Shown: piece by piece, positions 15,001 to 62,209 of the stretch
Layout of the letters: every line of letters begins with the position of its first letter
How positions within the stretch are numbered: the stretch's first letter is position 1
Source: Wenjunlia tyrosinilytica
GTDB taxonomy: Bacteria > Actinomycetota > Actinomycetes > Streptomycetales > Streptomycetaceae
Length of the DNA stretch: 64,000 bases
Direction: 5' to 3'
NCBI RefSeq assembly: GCF_014646055.1
Contig: NZ_BMMS01000009.1
Location: 62,001 to 126,000, forward strand
Notes under the pieces: generated by a model
Told to the model about the DNA's origin: nothing
What the model saw: only the letters and a program-made list of their open reading frames with translations
Databases searched by the model: none
Position numbers and translations under genes: made by a program

Positions 15001-15038
15001 GCGTCCGGCTCCTTCCCGCGCCCCCTCGGGGGTGCGGA

Positions 15039-15136
15039 CTCCTTCCGGGGGCAGGCCCCTTCCGGGGGCAGGCTCCTTCCGAGGGCAGGCCCCTCCTGAG
15101 GGCAGGCCCCTCCCGGGGGCAGGCCCCTTGCGAGGG
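15039..15136. repeat. 17-bp degenerate tandem repeat, five to six copies
   Basis: Units of the form CYCCTTCCGGGGGCAGG start at 15039, 15056, 15073, 15090 and 15107, with a decayed sixth at 15124. They fill the gap between the serC terminator and the next convergent gene. Confidence 0.85.
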
Positions 15137-15161
15137 TGCGGTCTCCTTCCGGCGCGCCGGC

Positions 15162-31700: not shown

Positions 31701-31940
31701 ACGGCCGGGGACACGGGCGCGGGCGGCGGCGTCGGCGGCGTTCTGGGCGAGCTCCACGACGAGGCGGTCACGGTAGCCACCGAGGACGAGGTCCTCCTCG
31801 GCGTTGGCGTCCTCGCGGAAGCGGGCGGGCGAGGCGGCCCAGGCATCGAGCACGGCCCCGCGCAGGTCAGTGGTCCCGAAGGGGTCGGCTCCGCCGGACT
31901 GCCCTTGGACCAACGACGACAAAAACGATGCCGTTCCCAC
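28758..31940 (-). CDS. Giant sacsin-like GHKL-ATPase-domain protein
   Basis: 1060 aa, GTG at 31938-31940 behind GGAGGAGAG. The N-terminal 170 residues carry an Hsp90/GHKL ATP-binding fold: VVELAQNAADAAARARVPGR (N box, with Asn and Asp), AAANTGAGLDAAGVESL (G1) and VGRFGVGFSAVLAV (G2). The remaining 850 residues are acidic and repeat-like, with many LPDG/LPLADG-type strands, and have no known enzymatic motif. The organisation matches bacterial sacsin N-terminal ATP-binding-like proteins found as single genes in Streptomyces. A chaperone-like role is inference. The 3' end is 60 bp from the terminator region of the ATPase cluster. Its upstream region is the 160-bp repeat array. Confidence 0.8.
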   Translation of the reverse strand: MGTASFLSSLVQGQSGGADPFGTTDLRGAVLDAWAASPARFREDANAEEDLVLGGYRDRLVVELAQNAADAAARARVPGRLRLILHPAHGGQPAMLAAANTGAGLDAAGVESLSTLRASAKRDDTQPTVGRFGVGFSAVLAVTDEPAVIGRSGGVRWSLAEARELAEETARTSSGLGDELRRRDGHVPLLRLPLPAEGTPPDGYDTVVVLPLRDGAAEDLVQRLLAAIDDALLLTLPGLAEVVVETPEGVRTLIRSEEQNIVVVTDSANGTTRWRVESAQGPIAAELLADRPVEERLRPSWALTWAVPVGSDGAPAATRTAPVVHAPTPTDEPLGVPALLIASLPLDPTRRHAAPGPLTEFLLSQAARAYVKLLCDWEPVGVGTLSLVPGPLGKGELDARLRRGVLELLPSTRFLPTAAAPPEDEDVPLALRPADAELVEGANAATVAVLAEVFHTLIPGGLERRVELRTLGVHRVPLGEMIDRLAGLERPADWWYRLYGALSGTDPDLLGGLPVPLADGRTVTGPRQVLLPLPDANDPNTEHHGIDPARLARLGLKVAHPDAAHPLLEKLGALPATARAVLTTAQVRAAVADSLDAEEAWDEDQGPLAADELADVVLRLVQASGIGPGEEPWLGALALPDDEGELAPAAELVLPGSPFEAVIREGELAACDVELLERWGERPLTALGVLATFALVRAEDVVLDPDDLEPDEGLEPWAEDVGLLDAVDVWCEDVLDQLPESDVPPVATELVAVRDLDLVDDDAWPQALSMLAQPPLRDALIAPVRVLLPDGSTQNVRPYTAWWLRDHPVLDGRRPVGLRAAGGDPLLEGLYDDAGVDVEHPLPDDQVLRCLGVRTSVAALLDEPGGPAELLARLADPDREVSPSQLHGIYAALAELDPQTLTLPDELRAVVDGSTEVVDAADAVIADAPDLLPLAADGPLLPVPPRLADDLAELLQVRKAGDAHTAEIVTEGEPHGVPAEVLAVLPGAPESYFEHEELRVTGDVEVDWRYVDGVLHAATLEGVAAGLAWAAGQWQRRFEIAALLAEPDRSAELAEARWFE

Positions 31941-32060
31941 TGCCGCTCTCCTCCGCCACCGACGCCGAGCTACCTGGTCCGGTGAAGGTACAGCCGAACC
32001 GCCCTGGGAACATCATCGCCCTTGTGGGCGGCGACGGGGACCGGAGCCGGGGGGCGAGCT
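31941..32060. other. Upstream region of the sacsin-like gene
   Basis: 120 bp with the Shine-Dalgarno of the minus-strand gene and presumably its promoter. No separate feature is seen. Confidence 0.4.
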
Positions 32061-32700
32061 GGTGACGCTGGTCCGACGGTCTCGTTTGCCGGGCGGCGGT
32101 TCGATCTGCGCGCTGCCGCGCGAAGGACAAAGGCACCAGCAACGGCGGAAGGTGGGCGAGGGGCCTGCTCCGGCAGCCGGGCGGCGGCTTCGAAGCGCCG
32201 CTTCGCGGCGATAGTGACGGACAGGCGCCGCCGGTCCGACGGTCTCGTTTGCCGGGCGGCGGTTCCATCTGCGCGCTGCCGCGCGAAGGACAAAGGCACC
32301 AGCAACGGCGGAAGGGGCCGGGGCCCGCTCCGGCAGCCGGGCGGCGGCTTCGAAGCGCCGCTTCGCGGCGATAGTGACGGACTGGTGACGCTGGTCCGAC
32401 GGTCTCGTTTGCCGGGCGGCGGTTCCATCTGCGCGCTGCCGCACGAAGGACAAAGGCACCAGCAACGGCGGAAGGGGCCGGGGCCCGCTCCGGCAGCCGG
32501 GCGGCGGCTTCGAAGCGCCGCTTCGCGGCGATAGTGACGGACTGGTGACGCCGATCTGACGGCTCCACCACCGGGCGGCGGTTCGATCTGCGCGCTGCCG
32601 CACGAAGGACAAACGCGCCAGCAACGGCGGAAGGGCGGGCGAGGGACCTGCTCCGGCAGCCGGGCGGCGGTTTACTAGCGCCGCTTCGCGGCGAGGGGAC
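32061..32700. repeat. 160-bp tandem repeat, four copies
   Basis: Four head-to-tail units can be aligned by the landmark GACGGTCTCGTTTGCCGGGC and its equivalent at 32081, 32244, 32404 and 32563 (spacings 163, 160, 159). Each unit also contains GAAGGACAAAGGCACCAGCA, CTCCGGCAGCCGGGCGGCGG and CTTCGAAGCGCCGCTTCGCG, the last forming a small hairpin. Copies 2 and 3 are almost identical; copy 4 is the most diverged. Period changes that are not multiples of three, and different frames across copies, argue against coding. Confidence 0.92.
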
Positions 32701-32708
32701 GGGTGGCA

Positions 32709-32828
32709 GGGGTACGGGGATGCCGTTTTCAAAACTGGTGGTGAGAATTTGGCCGCGCGCCCCCGCGCACACCCCCCTGGGCACAAGTGAAATTGCACCA
32801 CCAATTTCAGAAACGGTACCCATACCCC
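32709..32828. repeat. Imperfect 44-bp inverted repeat at the centre of the array
   Basis: 32709-32752 and 32784-32828 are about 75% complementary. They share GGGGTAYGGG, CCGTTTTC/CCGTTTCT and TGGTGGTG blocks and surround a 31-bp GC-rich centre. It could extrude as a cruciform or form an RNA stem. Confidence 0.75.
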
Positions 32829-32842
32829 CGGCCCGTGCACGC

Positions 32843-33149
32843 CTCACCGACGCGAAGCGGCGCGCGAAAACCGCCGACCCGGCGGCGCGGCCGCACCTCG
32901 CGCCCACTTTCGCCGTTGCCGACGCTTTTATCCTTCGCGCGACAGCGCGCGGACCGAACTGCCACCCGGCAAAGAAAACCGTCACACCAGCGCCACAACC
33001 CCGACCCCACAACCCCGACCCACAACCCCGACCCACGAACCAGACCCGCCCGACGGGGCAGGCCCACCCCGCGCCCGCCTCTGCCGTTGTCGGCGTTCCT
33101 GTCTCACTCGCGCGGGAAGTGCGCAACCCACGCCCCGCCCGGCGGCGCC
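32843..33149. repeat. Inverted, decayed copies of the 160-bp unit
   Basis: 32843-32995 reads like the reverse complement of one 160-bp unit: GACGCGAAGCGGCG, then TTTCGCCGTTGCCGACGCTTTT, TCCTTCGCGCGACAGCGCGC and GGCAAAGAAAACCGTCACAC all correspond in order. A second, more eroded fragment (33069-33149) follows. Between them, CCACAACCCCGAC is repeated three to four times (about 32994-33040). Confidence 0.75.
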
Positions 33150-33188
33150 GCCGTCGCGGCGACGCCGGCCCGCGTCCCCGCGCGCCGC

Positions 33189-34091
33189 TCAGCTGTGGCC
33201 CAGTTCCTCCGACTCGGCGCCTTCTTCCACCGATCCGCCGGTCCGCTCCGGATGGAGCGACATCGGGTCCACGTCGTGCATCTCGTCCAGCACCGGCTCC
33301 GCCGGCTTCGGCGGCTTCGGGACCACCGCCGCCTCCGAATGCGCCCCGCAGCCGAACGACAGTGACACCACATGCCCGTCGGCCGGGCCGTACTCGTTCG
33401 CGCACACCCCGAACGCCTGCCGCAGCGACCCCGCGATCGGGACCAGGAAGCCGCAGGTCGCGCACTTGGCCGGCGCCGCCTGCGCCATCGGCGTCTTCGG
33501 CCCGAACTGCTCCTCCCACCGGTCCGCGGCCGCGTGCAGCCCGTAACGGGACAGCACCCTCGGCCGCGCCATGCCGATCTCCTCGGCGACAGCCGCGATA
33601 CTGCTCACACCCGGAGCCGGCTTCGGCTCCACATCCGCGTCCTCGGCCTCCGCCAGTTCCGCGACCTCCGGCGACACCGCGGAGTTCGGCGGCGGCTCAT
33701 CGGCCCCGGTGAACCCCGGCTCCAGCCGGAGATCGTCCGCCTCCGTCGGCAGCAGATCACCCGGCCCCAGGTCACCGGGGCGCAGCCGCTCGCTCCACGG
33801 CACCCACTCGGGCGCGAGCACCGCGTCCCCGCCCGGCAGCAGCACCGTCTCGTCGACCGTCACCTGCTTGCTGCGGGACGCGCGGGCCAGCGTCACCGCC
33901 CAGCGCCAGCCGCGGTAGGCGGCCTCCTTCGTGGCGAACGAGTGCGTGACGACCCGGTCGCCGTCCGCCACCACACCAAGGTGCTCGCCCACGCCGTCGG
34001 GGCCTGCGGCGTCCTCGGCCGCGGCACGGGCGAGCTCGACGGCCTCGGCACACAGGCGGTCAGGGGTACGGCTTCGCATCGCAGCACTCAC
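33189..34091 (-). CDS. DUF3027 protein
   Basis: 300 aa, GTG at 34089-34091. The family signature includes LCAEAVELARAAAEDAAGPDGVGEHLGVVADGDRVVTHSFATKEAAYRGWRWAVTLARASRSKQVTVDE and the C-terminal cysteine pair region CATCGFLVPIAGSLRQAFGVCANEYGPADGHVVSLSFGCGAHSE. The four Cys/His-containing motifs could form a zinc site (inference). A Glu/Pro-rich linker (about 115-165) separates the halves. It is common and well conserved in actinobacteria; function is unknown. Its 3' end faces the repeat region. Confidence 0.85.
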   Translation of the reverse strand: MSAAMRSRTPDRLCAEAVELARAAAEDAAGPDGVGEHLGVVADGDRVVTHSFATKEAAYRGWRWAVTLARASRSKQVTVDETVLLPGGDAVLAPEWVPWSERLRPGDLGPGDLLPTEADDLRLEPGFTGADEPPPNSAVSPEVAELAEAEDADVEPKPAPGVSSIAAVAEEIGMARPRVLSRYGLHAAADRWEEQFGPKTPMAQAAPAKCATCGFLVPIAGSLRQAFGVCANEYGPADGHVVSLSFGCGAHSEAAVVPKPPKPAEPVLDEMHDVDPMSLHPERTGGSVEEGAESEELGHS

Positions 34092-53676: not shown

Positions 53677-55465
<1,789 letters not shown>

Positions 55466-55487
55466 GCCCCCTGCGAGTGCAAGCCAA

Positions 55488-55960
55488 GGAAGGGGAAGCT
55501 TCACGGGTTCCCTACCCACGATCGAGCCCGCTCCCCCGTCGCAGCGCCCTCCGCTGGGGCAGAGGGAGGGGCGACGGGCGGGCGCAAGCCAGTCAGGGGT
55601 TGGTCAAGTCTTGCGGCCAGCCACCATCAAGCCCCACTCCCGTCGCAGCGCCCTCCGCTGGGGCGGAGGGAGGGGCGACGGGCGGGCGCAAGCCAGTCAA
55701 GGGTTGGTCAAGTCCTGCGGCCAGCCACCATCAAGCCCCACTCCCGTCGCAGCGCCCTCCGCTGGGGCGGAGGGTGGGGCAACGGGCGGGCGCAAGCCAG
55801 TCAAGGGTTGGTCAAGCCCTGCGGCCAGCCACCATCAAGCCCCACTCCCGTCGCAGCGCCCTCCGCTGGGGCGGAGGGAGGGGCGACGGGCGGGCGCAAG
55901 CCAAGGAAGGGGAAGCTTCACGGGTTCCCCACCCACGATCGAGCCCGCTCCCCCGTCGCA
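55488..55960. repeat. 104-bp hairpin repeat array upstream of groEL
   Basis: The landmark GTCGCAGCGCCCTCCGC recurs at intervals of 104, 104, 104 and 105 bp (GCAGCG at 55541, 55645, 55749, 55853, 55958). The first four units each contain a strong stem: CCCGTCGC...GCGACGGG enclosing CCCTCCGC...GCGGAGGG. Units 1-2, 2-3 and 3-4 are joined by one spacer type (GTCAAGGGTTGGTCAAG, CAGCCACCATCAAGCCCCAC). A different spacer (AAGGAAGGGGAAGCTTCACG, CCCACGATCGAGCCCGCTC) flanks the array on both sides. The last, partial unit runs into the csp terminator. Confidence 0.92.
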
Positions 55961-55994
55961 GCGCCCTCCGCGGCGCCCTCCGCCTCCGCGCGGC

Positions 55995-61357: not shown

Positions 61358-62209
61358 CTAGATCGACAGTACGTCGGCCAGGGCCTCCAGCAACGCAACG
61401 ACCCCTCCGGGGCCGTCCACGACCAGATCGGCCCGGCGCGCCAGCTCGGCGACGGTGGGTTCGCCGCCCTCGTCCAGCGCTCCACTGCACACCAGCAGTC
61501 CCGGCAGTCCCTCTGCCCGCAGCCGTTCCACGGCCCCGAAGGCGGCCAGATCCCCCAGGTCGTCGCCCGCGTAGAGCACGGACCCGGCTCCCACCTCGTT
61601 CAGGTACTCCGCGAGTGCCACACCCTTGTCCATGCCGGGCGGGCGCAGCTCCAGCACCATCCTGCCCGGTTCGAGGACCAGGCCGTGCCGCTCCGCCAGC
61701 TCCCCCAGGGGCCCCTTGAGCAGGTCCAGCGCGGCGTCGGGGTCCTCGGTGCGGCGGGTGTGCACGGCGACCGCGCGCCCCTTGTCCTCGAGCCAGGTGC
61801 CCTGCCAGGCGCCGATGCGGTCCAGGAAGCCGGGCAGCTCGGCACGGGCGGTCAGCACCCCCGGGTGGACCGCGGGCGCGTGCACCTCGCCCGTCACCGC
61901 GTCCCAGCGCTCGGCGCCGTAGTGGCCCAGGACCACCAGGTGCTCCAGGCCCGGCACGCCCGCGAACCCGCCGTGCCGCACGGCCACGCCCGGAGGGCGC
62001 CCGGTGACGACGGCGACCGACCGCACACGCGGCGCGAGTCCCGACAGCGCCCGGACCGCTCCGGGGTGGGCGCGGGCCTGGTCGGGGTCCGGGACGATCG
62101 GTGAGAGCGTTCCGTCGAAGTCGAGCGCGACCACGGCGCGCCCCGGCTCGGCCAGCAGCGCCGCGAGCCCTTCCTTGCCCTGCGGCGTGGTCGGCGTGGG
62201 GATACCCAT
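61358..62209 (-). CDS. otsB: Trehalose-6-phosphate phosphatase
   Basis: 283 aa, ATG at 62207-62209. A HAD phosphatase that dephosphorylates trehalose-6-phosphate. Motif I VVALDFDGTLSPIVPDPDQA, motif II VAVVTGRPPG, the LGHYGAERWD cap signature and motifs III-IV (MDKGVALAEYLNEV, VLYAGDDLGDLAAFGAV). TAGGGT lies 8 nt before the ATG on the minus strand and no SD is seen, so the mRNA is likely leaderless. It lies upstream of otsA on the same strand. Confidence 0.94.
   Translation of the reverse strand: MGIPTPTTPQGKEGLAALLAEPGRAVVALDFDGTLSPIVPDPDQARAHPGAVRALSGLAPRVRSVAVVTGRPPGVAVRHGGFAGVPGLEHLVVLGHYGAERWDAVTGEVHAPAVHPGVLTARAELPGFLDRIGAWQGTWLEDKGRAVAVHTRRTEDPDAALDLLKGPLGELAERHGLVLEPGRMVLELRPPGMDKGVALAEYLNEVGAGSVLYAGDDLGDLAAFGAVERLRAEGLPGLLVCSGALDEGGEPTVAELARRADLVVDGPGGVVALLEALADVLSI

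Follow-up and report, generated by a model that had tools for sequence, protein, structure and literature searches.

Upstream of a gene for a sacsin-like ATPase, the window analysed here (the whole stretch of 64,000 nucleotides from Wenjunlia tyrosinilytica, positions 62,001 to 126,000 of contig NZ_BMMS01000009.1) carries repeats of about 160 bp in palindromic arrangement, and the question arose of what kind of element such an array represents. An earlier note, made from the letters alone, had described four direct copies, a central 44-bp inverted repeat and decayed copies in opposite orientation, and had offered a structured RNA, a cruciform or a miniature mobile element duplicated in place as explanations.

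Layout of the array in the window

The four direct units are real: Tandem Repeats Finder reported a period of 160 with 92% matches and a score of 1024 on 32059-32694, where the units follow each other at spacings of 163, 160 and 159. The central inverted repeat was also found, and its extent was revised from 44 bp to a core of 121 bp. On the other side of the core the units are turned around, and, over 161 nt, the arm at 32050-32210 shows 73% complementarity to that at 32848-33008. The best match of the array to its own opposite strand reached 158 bits; among 95 control pieces of the same window the maximum was 64.4 bits and the 95th percentile 48.2 bits. What had been described as decayed opposite copies is one full right-arm unit, with its end motif at about 32978-32992, and one strongly decayed unit that was recognised by eye. 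The features are compiled in Table 1.

Table 1. Parts of the palindromic array and their positions in the window
Feature	Position	Strand	Remarks
Left-arm unit L4, outermost	32059..32221	+	starts with CTGGTGACGCTGGTCCGACGGT (inverted end motif)
Left-arm unit L3	32222..32381	+	
Left-arm unit L2	32382..32540	+	32382-32541 was the query of the genome unit search
Left-arm unit L1, innermost	32541..32694	+	more diverged
Core of 121 bp, inverted arms around a GC-rich spacer	32709..32829	+	the other four genomic copies have the same length
Right-arm unit R1, oriented opposite to the left-arm units	32848..32992	-	ends in ACCGTCACACCAGCG; boundaries approximate
Tandem repeat of 13/14 bp within the right arm	32993..33041	+	separate from the units
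Outer right-arm unit, putative, strongly decayed	33060..33160	-	drawn by eye, boundaries approximate
Conserved hairpin segment, example	32585..32643	-	read outward from the core
Further conserved hairpin segments, left arm	32426-32484, 32266-32324, 32103-32161	-	
Conserved hairpin segment, right arm	32897-32955	+	

The period had been said to break the reading frame. This applies to the spacings of 163 and 160; the spacing of 159 is a multiple of 3. With two of the three spacings shifting the frame and none of the four open reading frames over the array matching Pfam at an E-value of 0.01, coding sequence was rejected as an explanation and the view that the long open frames are artefacts is supported.

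Five loci with a common plan

The units do occur elsewhere. In the genome of W. tyrosinilytica (8.49 Mb in 172 contigs) five loci were found: the array of the window (C9), C67, C19a and C19b, which are 16 kb apart, and C13. They have one plan in common, a 121-bp core with imperfect inverted arms which is flanked by oppositely pointing units. All five cores are exactly 121 bp long, with an aligned identity of 0.68-0.91 (mean 0.75), and contain a run of 11 invariant bases, ATTGCACCACC. The arrays have a G+C content of 72-74%, and the half-sites in the palindromic core are AT-rich. A pattern of the unit motif, the most conserved part of the unit, allowing up to three mismatches, gave 22 listed matches, all of them in the arrays; the reversed control gave 0. 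One of the 22 lies at the start of contig C1. Since the genes on either side of the break between C67 and C1, an aldo/keto reductase gene and a small gene, are neighbours in the relatives G001 and G012, the end of C67 was counted, together with the start of C1, as one locus that was split by the assembly. The break itself lies inside one copy of the element, at the end of L013 (4683) and the start of L018.

Self-complementarity, measured as for the window, amounted to 239 bits at C67, 102 at C13, 75.2 at C19b and 54.5 at C19a; the last value is below the control maximum of 64.4 bits and, therefore, C19a is palindromic in layout more than in sequence. Three of the sites lie between convergent and two between tandem genes and none between divergent genes, five sites being too few for a test. 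Because the other four copies lie beside other genes, the sacsin-like neighbour, by which the earlier note had located the array, looks incidental, and a regulatory element specific for the sacsin-like gene was not kept as the main reading. By eye, a stretch like GTACCTTC..CCGG precedes the start of the sacsin-like gene in some relatives; here, it lies outside the array.

Units, end motif and growth of the arms

Units are mostly 150-216 bp long and successive conserved segments are mostly spaced 149-216 bp apart, with shorter spacings of 87, 113 and 143 and, at C13, compound ones of 329 and 476. Read outward from the core, the conserved segment is of the type GCGCTTTTGTCCTTCGCGCGGCAGCGCGCA. 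It is followed, 53-57 bp after its hairpin, by the end motif ACCGTCAGTTCAGCG or a variant with up to three substitutions in 24 of 29 units. The five units in which the motif is missing (more than three substitutions) all belong to left arms (3/3 at C19b and 2/3 at C19a), and the unit on C1 is also without it. Both arms carry the end motif at C9, C67, C13 and C19a, at the latter only in an inner unit on the left; C19b has it in the right arm only.

The number of recognisable units (left/right) is 4/1 in the window, 4/1 at C67 followed by at least one on C1, 3/3 at C19a, 3/5 at C19b and 1/4 at C13. Among the 29 aligned unit segments, the mean identity was 0.81 within the same arm (37 pairs), 0.65 with the other arm of the same locus (36 pairs) and 0.67 (159 pairs) and 0.66 (174 pairs) between loci, means that are descriptive since the pairs share history. 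Because units are so much more alike within an arm than between arms or loci (0.81 versus 0.65-0.67), the arms appear to have grown in place after the palindromes had dispersed, and the identity classes demonstrate amplification within arms.

Absence of the array from relatives

Four of the junctions could be compared with those of relatives, and at all four relatives without such an array were found. A match to the sacsin-like gene beside DUF3027 was present in 13 of the 23 stretches fetched from relatives. Between the aligned gene ends, the gap is 1,248 bp here and only 92-286 bp in G001 (same genus), G008, G012, G013 and G009 and 175-314 bp in G004, G014, G011 and G025. Longer gaps were found in G007 (472 bp), G005 (762 bp) and G002 (1,148 bp), and that of G006 (767 bp) holds a palindrome of its own. 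Inverted-repeat searches found no comparable array in the gaps of G007, G002, G005 and G004. The gap between the EAL gene and gatC is 1,309 bp here versus 200-343 bp in G001, G008, G012, G013 and G009, and the LuxR-PQQ gap is about 1,800 bp versus 527, 342 and 52 bp in G001, G009 and G012, respectively; repeat searches revealed no array in the EAL-gatC gaps of G001, G008 and G013 or in the LuxR-PQQ gaps of G001 and G009. In G001 and G012, the reductase and the small gene lie 82 and 157 bp apart, respectively. The remaining gaps of relatives at these junctions were judged by size and eye.

The C13 junction is not comparable, since the stretches of five relatives at this junction yielded no match to the GNAT-type gene that adjoins the C13 copy (L016, 6457-7401); this gene and the array at C13 may therefore have arrived together. 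In four of these five stretches, the DNA behind the glutaredoxin gene was searched and showed no array.

Searches of whole genomes gave a similar picture. With the unit as query, 41 genomes yielded matches in 20 others, all of 22-56 bp and with E-values from 9.7e-5 to 9.5e-4 (best 20 or fewer candidates scored per genome). A BLAST search with the core in 297 genomes, with two candidates scored per genome, gave one 25-bp match in G007, at a sensitivity that missed three of the five own copies. In the same number of genomes, a 23-base pattern of the right arm with up to two mismatches had five exact matches in the own genome and, elsewhere, one match with two mismatches in each of three genomes, versus one control match. 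A covariance model of the core, run with strict filters on 249 genomes of the taxonomic family, matched only the own genome, at the five loci and on both strands. The exact pattern was found twice in genome contigs, a collection from which the own record was possibly left out, in metagenome-assembled genomes of Bacteroidetes and Bacteriovorax, and these matches were taken as chance. Neither the core nor the window array matched the phage (50,697) and plasmid (72,556) records, and viral contigs gave no exact match of a core and a unit pattern. Hence, the possibility that the units are found nowhere else fails inside the own genome and holds for the other genomes searched at the sensitivity used. 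In titles and abstract openings of the literature outside subscription papers and preprints, no account of such palindromic arrays in Streptomyces or relatives was found.

A probable non-autonomous palindromic element as the best explanation

Among the options offered earlier, a miniature mobile element with duplication in place agrees best with the evidence: the family is dispersed over five loci, relatives lack it at all four comparable junctions, and growth took place within the arms. We regard it as fairly probable that the window array and its four sisters are a lineage-specific, non-coding and non-autonomous interspersed palindrome with a foldback-like layout, which may have moved. The reading builds on a dispersed family with a common core, inverted arms, an end motif in most units, amplification within arms and absence from the comparable junctions of relatives; the ancestral form, transposition, the enzyme responsible for it and neutrality of the copies we infer.

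The ancestral form would have been a palindrome of about 450 bp, made up of an arm unit, the 121-bp core and an inverted arm unit, with each arm terminated by a motif of the end-motif type. Transposition in trans may have dispersed it, or a hairpin form of it may have been copied, and copies would have settled in tolerant places downstream of genes. Later, each arm would have grown or shrunk independently, by slippage or unequal recombination between direct units, which would have produced foldback-like arrays whose arms now have between 1 and 5 recognisable units. Target-site duplications could not be read at the loci because the outer units are decayed and the intergenic DNA of relatives is unalignable by eye. 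A pattern of the ends had ten matches with 0-1 mismatch in the own draft assembly, all of them in the C19 arrays, and six matches outside the arrays, all with two mismatches and comparable in number with the reversed control (7). With this pattern, which is insensitive and also misses ends in the window and at C67, no larger or transposase-bearing copy with these ends was found in the own draft assembly. Since there are only five copies and these are diverged (core identity 0.68-0.91), no recent movement is visible.

RNA, binding-site and remnant readings

The structured RNA that had been suggested before would have to be transcribed divergently from the core, so that hairpins and terminators in the arms give short structured RNAs, for instance sponges for binding sites. 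A scan of the five arrays gave 14 terminator-like sites, compared with 4.9 expected in total from shuffles, and 13 of the 14 point outward; the sites are not independent, as each unit tends to bring its own and two of them overlap, and C67 has none. The conserved segment can form an 11-pair hairpin. On the outward strand, 224 of 297 cells were Watson-Crick pairs, 50 wobble pairs and 23 broken, so that 92.3% were paired, and on the inward strand the numbers were 224, 13 and 60. The outward direction of the terminator-like sites and the greater tolerance of the hairpin to change on the outward strand hint weakly at an RNA role. Against it, the hairpin had zero compensatory double changes, and shuffles equalled its observed pairing because one side hardly varies. 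An alternative short hairpin, which excludes the 11-pair one, was paired in 100% of cells and was the one chosen by RNAalifold. A single unit folded no better than shuffles on either strand (z +0.47 and +0.92), a scan with the sigma-70 consensus found no promoter-like site in the five arrays, and Rfam (4227 families) had no match at E-values up to 1 in 31900-33300 of the window. The alignment of the cores had an unfavourable covariation term (+3.76), with double changes in 3 of 38 pairs, and its mismatches on the plus strand (15 A-C versus 6 G-U cells) favour the other strand. A transcribed RNA element is therefore unlikely in our estimate, Rfam and single-unit folding standing against the hairpin and the outward sites.

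Alternatively, a putative protein could bind two inverted half-sites in the core and organise the DNA or insulate genes, as a BIME-like architectural site to which the arms add further sites. The constancy of the core, with its 121 bp and 11 invariant bases in five copies, argues for such a site, and so does its mean identity of 0.75, which is higher than that of unit segments between loci (0.66-0.67). Moreover, region 32700-32880, folded as single-stranded DNA, outperformed its shuffles (z -2.35; 3 of 200 were as good). It might extrude as a cruciform, another of the earlier suggestions. Unit numbers, on the other hand, vary between loci and arms, and there are only five copies, with none above control level in the sister species or in the rest of the taxonomic family. 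Because such a restriction would be unusual for a chromosomal site that is needed, we consider this function improbable. The array and its sisters could also be the ends and core that stayed behind when an autonomous element, now extinct, or an integrated phage or plasmid lost its coding part. AT-rich half-sites amid otherwise G+C-rich arrays would agree with such an origin, but the lack of matches among the phage, plasmid and viral-contig sequences and of Pfam matches for the four open reading frames makes it very unlikely.

A second palindrome family in G006 and G013

The palindrome at the DUF3027-sacsin junction of G006, which belongs to another genus of the same taxonomic family, is one member of a further repeat family. 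A 300-bp part of its palindromic core is present in at least 18 full copies (18 scored of 106 candidates); the 17 other scored copies are 89-92% identical to the query copy, and the similarity extends past the 300 bp. Ends of the type GTAATGGCTGACCGCCAGCGCGAGCGAACC, for which 8 substitutions in 31 were tolerated and no control was run, were found on both sides of 8 copies, on one side of 7 and on neither side of 3. Five of the 18 copies possess a second unit in the right arm; the left arms lack that marker and were left unscored. In the intergenic copies of G006 (L087-L104 and L152-L169), arm segments occur in alternative versions as judged by eye, which suggests exchange between copies or arms. 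G013 has related, shorter palindromic intergenic elements, L105 and L106 (best E-value 1.9e-27), and one arm of L106 contains a direct duplication with a spacing of 105 bp.

Homology of the two families was rejected: the best match between them had 33.7 bits (E 0.002), below the six best of 20 control draws, which had 36.5 to 82.4 bits, although the two draws at 82.4 bits may stem from shared neighbouring genes. Like the window family, the G006 family has a palindromic core, inverted common ends, additional arm units and a copy at the DUF3027-sacsin junction; it differs by its at least 18 copies, compared with five, and by the lack of detectable sequence similarity. It is suggestive that both families share a plan and a junction. 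Conceivably, genomes of this actinobacterial family contain a recurrent, hitherto unnamed class of foldback-like elements, in which repeat families without sequence similarity (five copies in W. tyrosinilytica, 18 or more in G006 and relatives of the latter in G013) follow one plan, amplify their arms in place and have the outward strand transcribed into repeated hairpin RNAs; in this full form, the proposal is a long shot.

Comparison with known elements

The window family can be compared with three kinds of known elements. In Galileo, a foldback-like element of Drosophila, the middle is enclosed by long inverted arms in which direct tandem repeats can occur. The arms can lengthen, among other ways, when such repeats expand, and Galileo is described as having target-site duplications and a single copy with a transposase that is nearly complete (PMC4168063). 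The window family resembles foldback elements in its long inverted arms of direct subrepeats around a middle, with weak self-complementarity at C19a (54.5 bits). In contrast to Galileo, target-site duplications and a transposase copy were not seen and the host is bacterial; the likeness drawn here is one of layout.

REPs, which are mentioned for E. coli in PMC4681348, lie mostly downstream of coding regions (PMC3733652), and REPINs are inverted pairs around a spacer, some of them in ordered tandem clusters (PMC3116915). Like REP, REPIN and BIME sequences, the window family consists of non-coding extragenic palindromes. REPs, however, are 20-40 bp long, carry a GTAG/CGTC tag at one end and occur in high copy, whereas the units here are mostly 150-216 bp long and are found at five loci. 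Around the hairpin, 28 units have the consensus CTTCGCGCGGCAGCGCGCAGA, with no GTAG or CGTC next to the stem; a CGTC inside the end motif is about 55 bp away from the hairpin. Judged by this tag, the window family is not a REP family. MITEs with inverted ends and PATEs with palindromes near their ends are both dispersed and of non-coding size (PMC3119063), and the window family shares with them several dispersed, short and non-coding copies at five loci. It differs in that neither a parental transposon nor a target duplication was found and in that the arms are amplified in tandem.

If the non-autonomous palindrome is the right reading, the foldback transposons of eukaryotes have counterparts of like plan that evolved in bacteria, with long inverted arms that lengthen through tandem repeats. 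Draft assemblies break at elements of this kind, as seen here for the copy that is spread over two contigs, and the elements could promote inversions. Five copies here, compared with none in the sampled sister species, offer a ready test of arm growth and movement. That G006 houses a family built alike, with one member at the DUF3027-sacsin junction as well, may point to hot spots or to a driver that both families share.

Other repeats in the window

Two further tandem arrays were observed in the window. At 55473-55989, a 104-bp unit with an internal palindrome is repeated about four times, and this array is flanked on both sides by an 82-bp direct repeat (96%). Beside it, at 55440-55475, lies an inverted repeat, GAGTGCTAA-N9-TTAGCACTC, which we take to be CIRCE-like. 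The other array, at 15020-15152, consists of 17/34-bp units (CCTTCCGGGGGCAGGCC) and had a score of 152.
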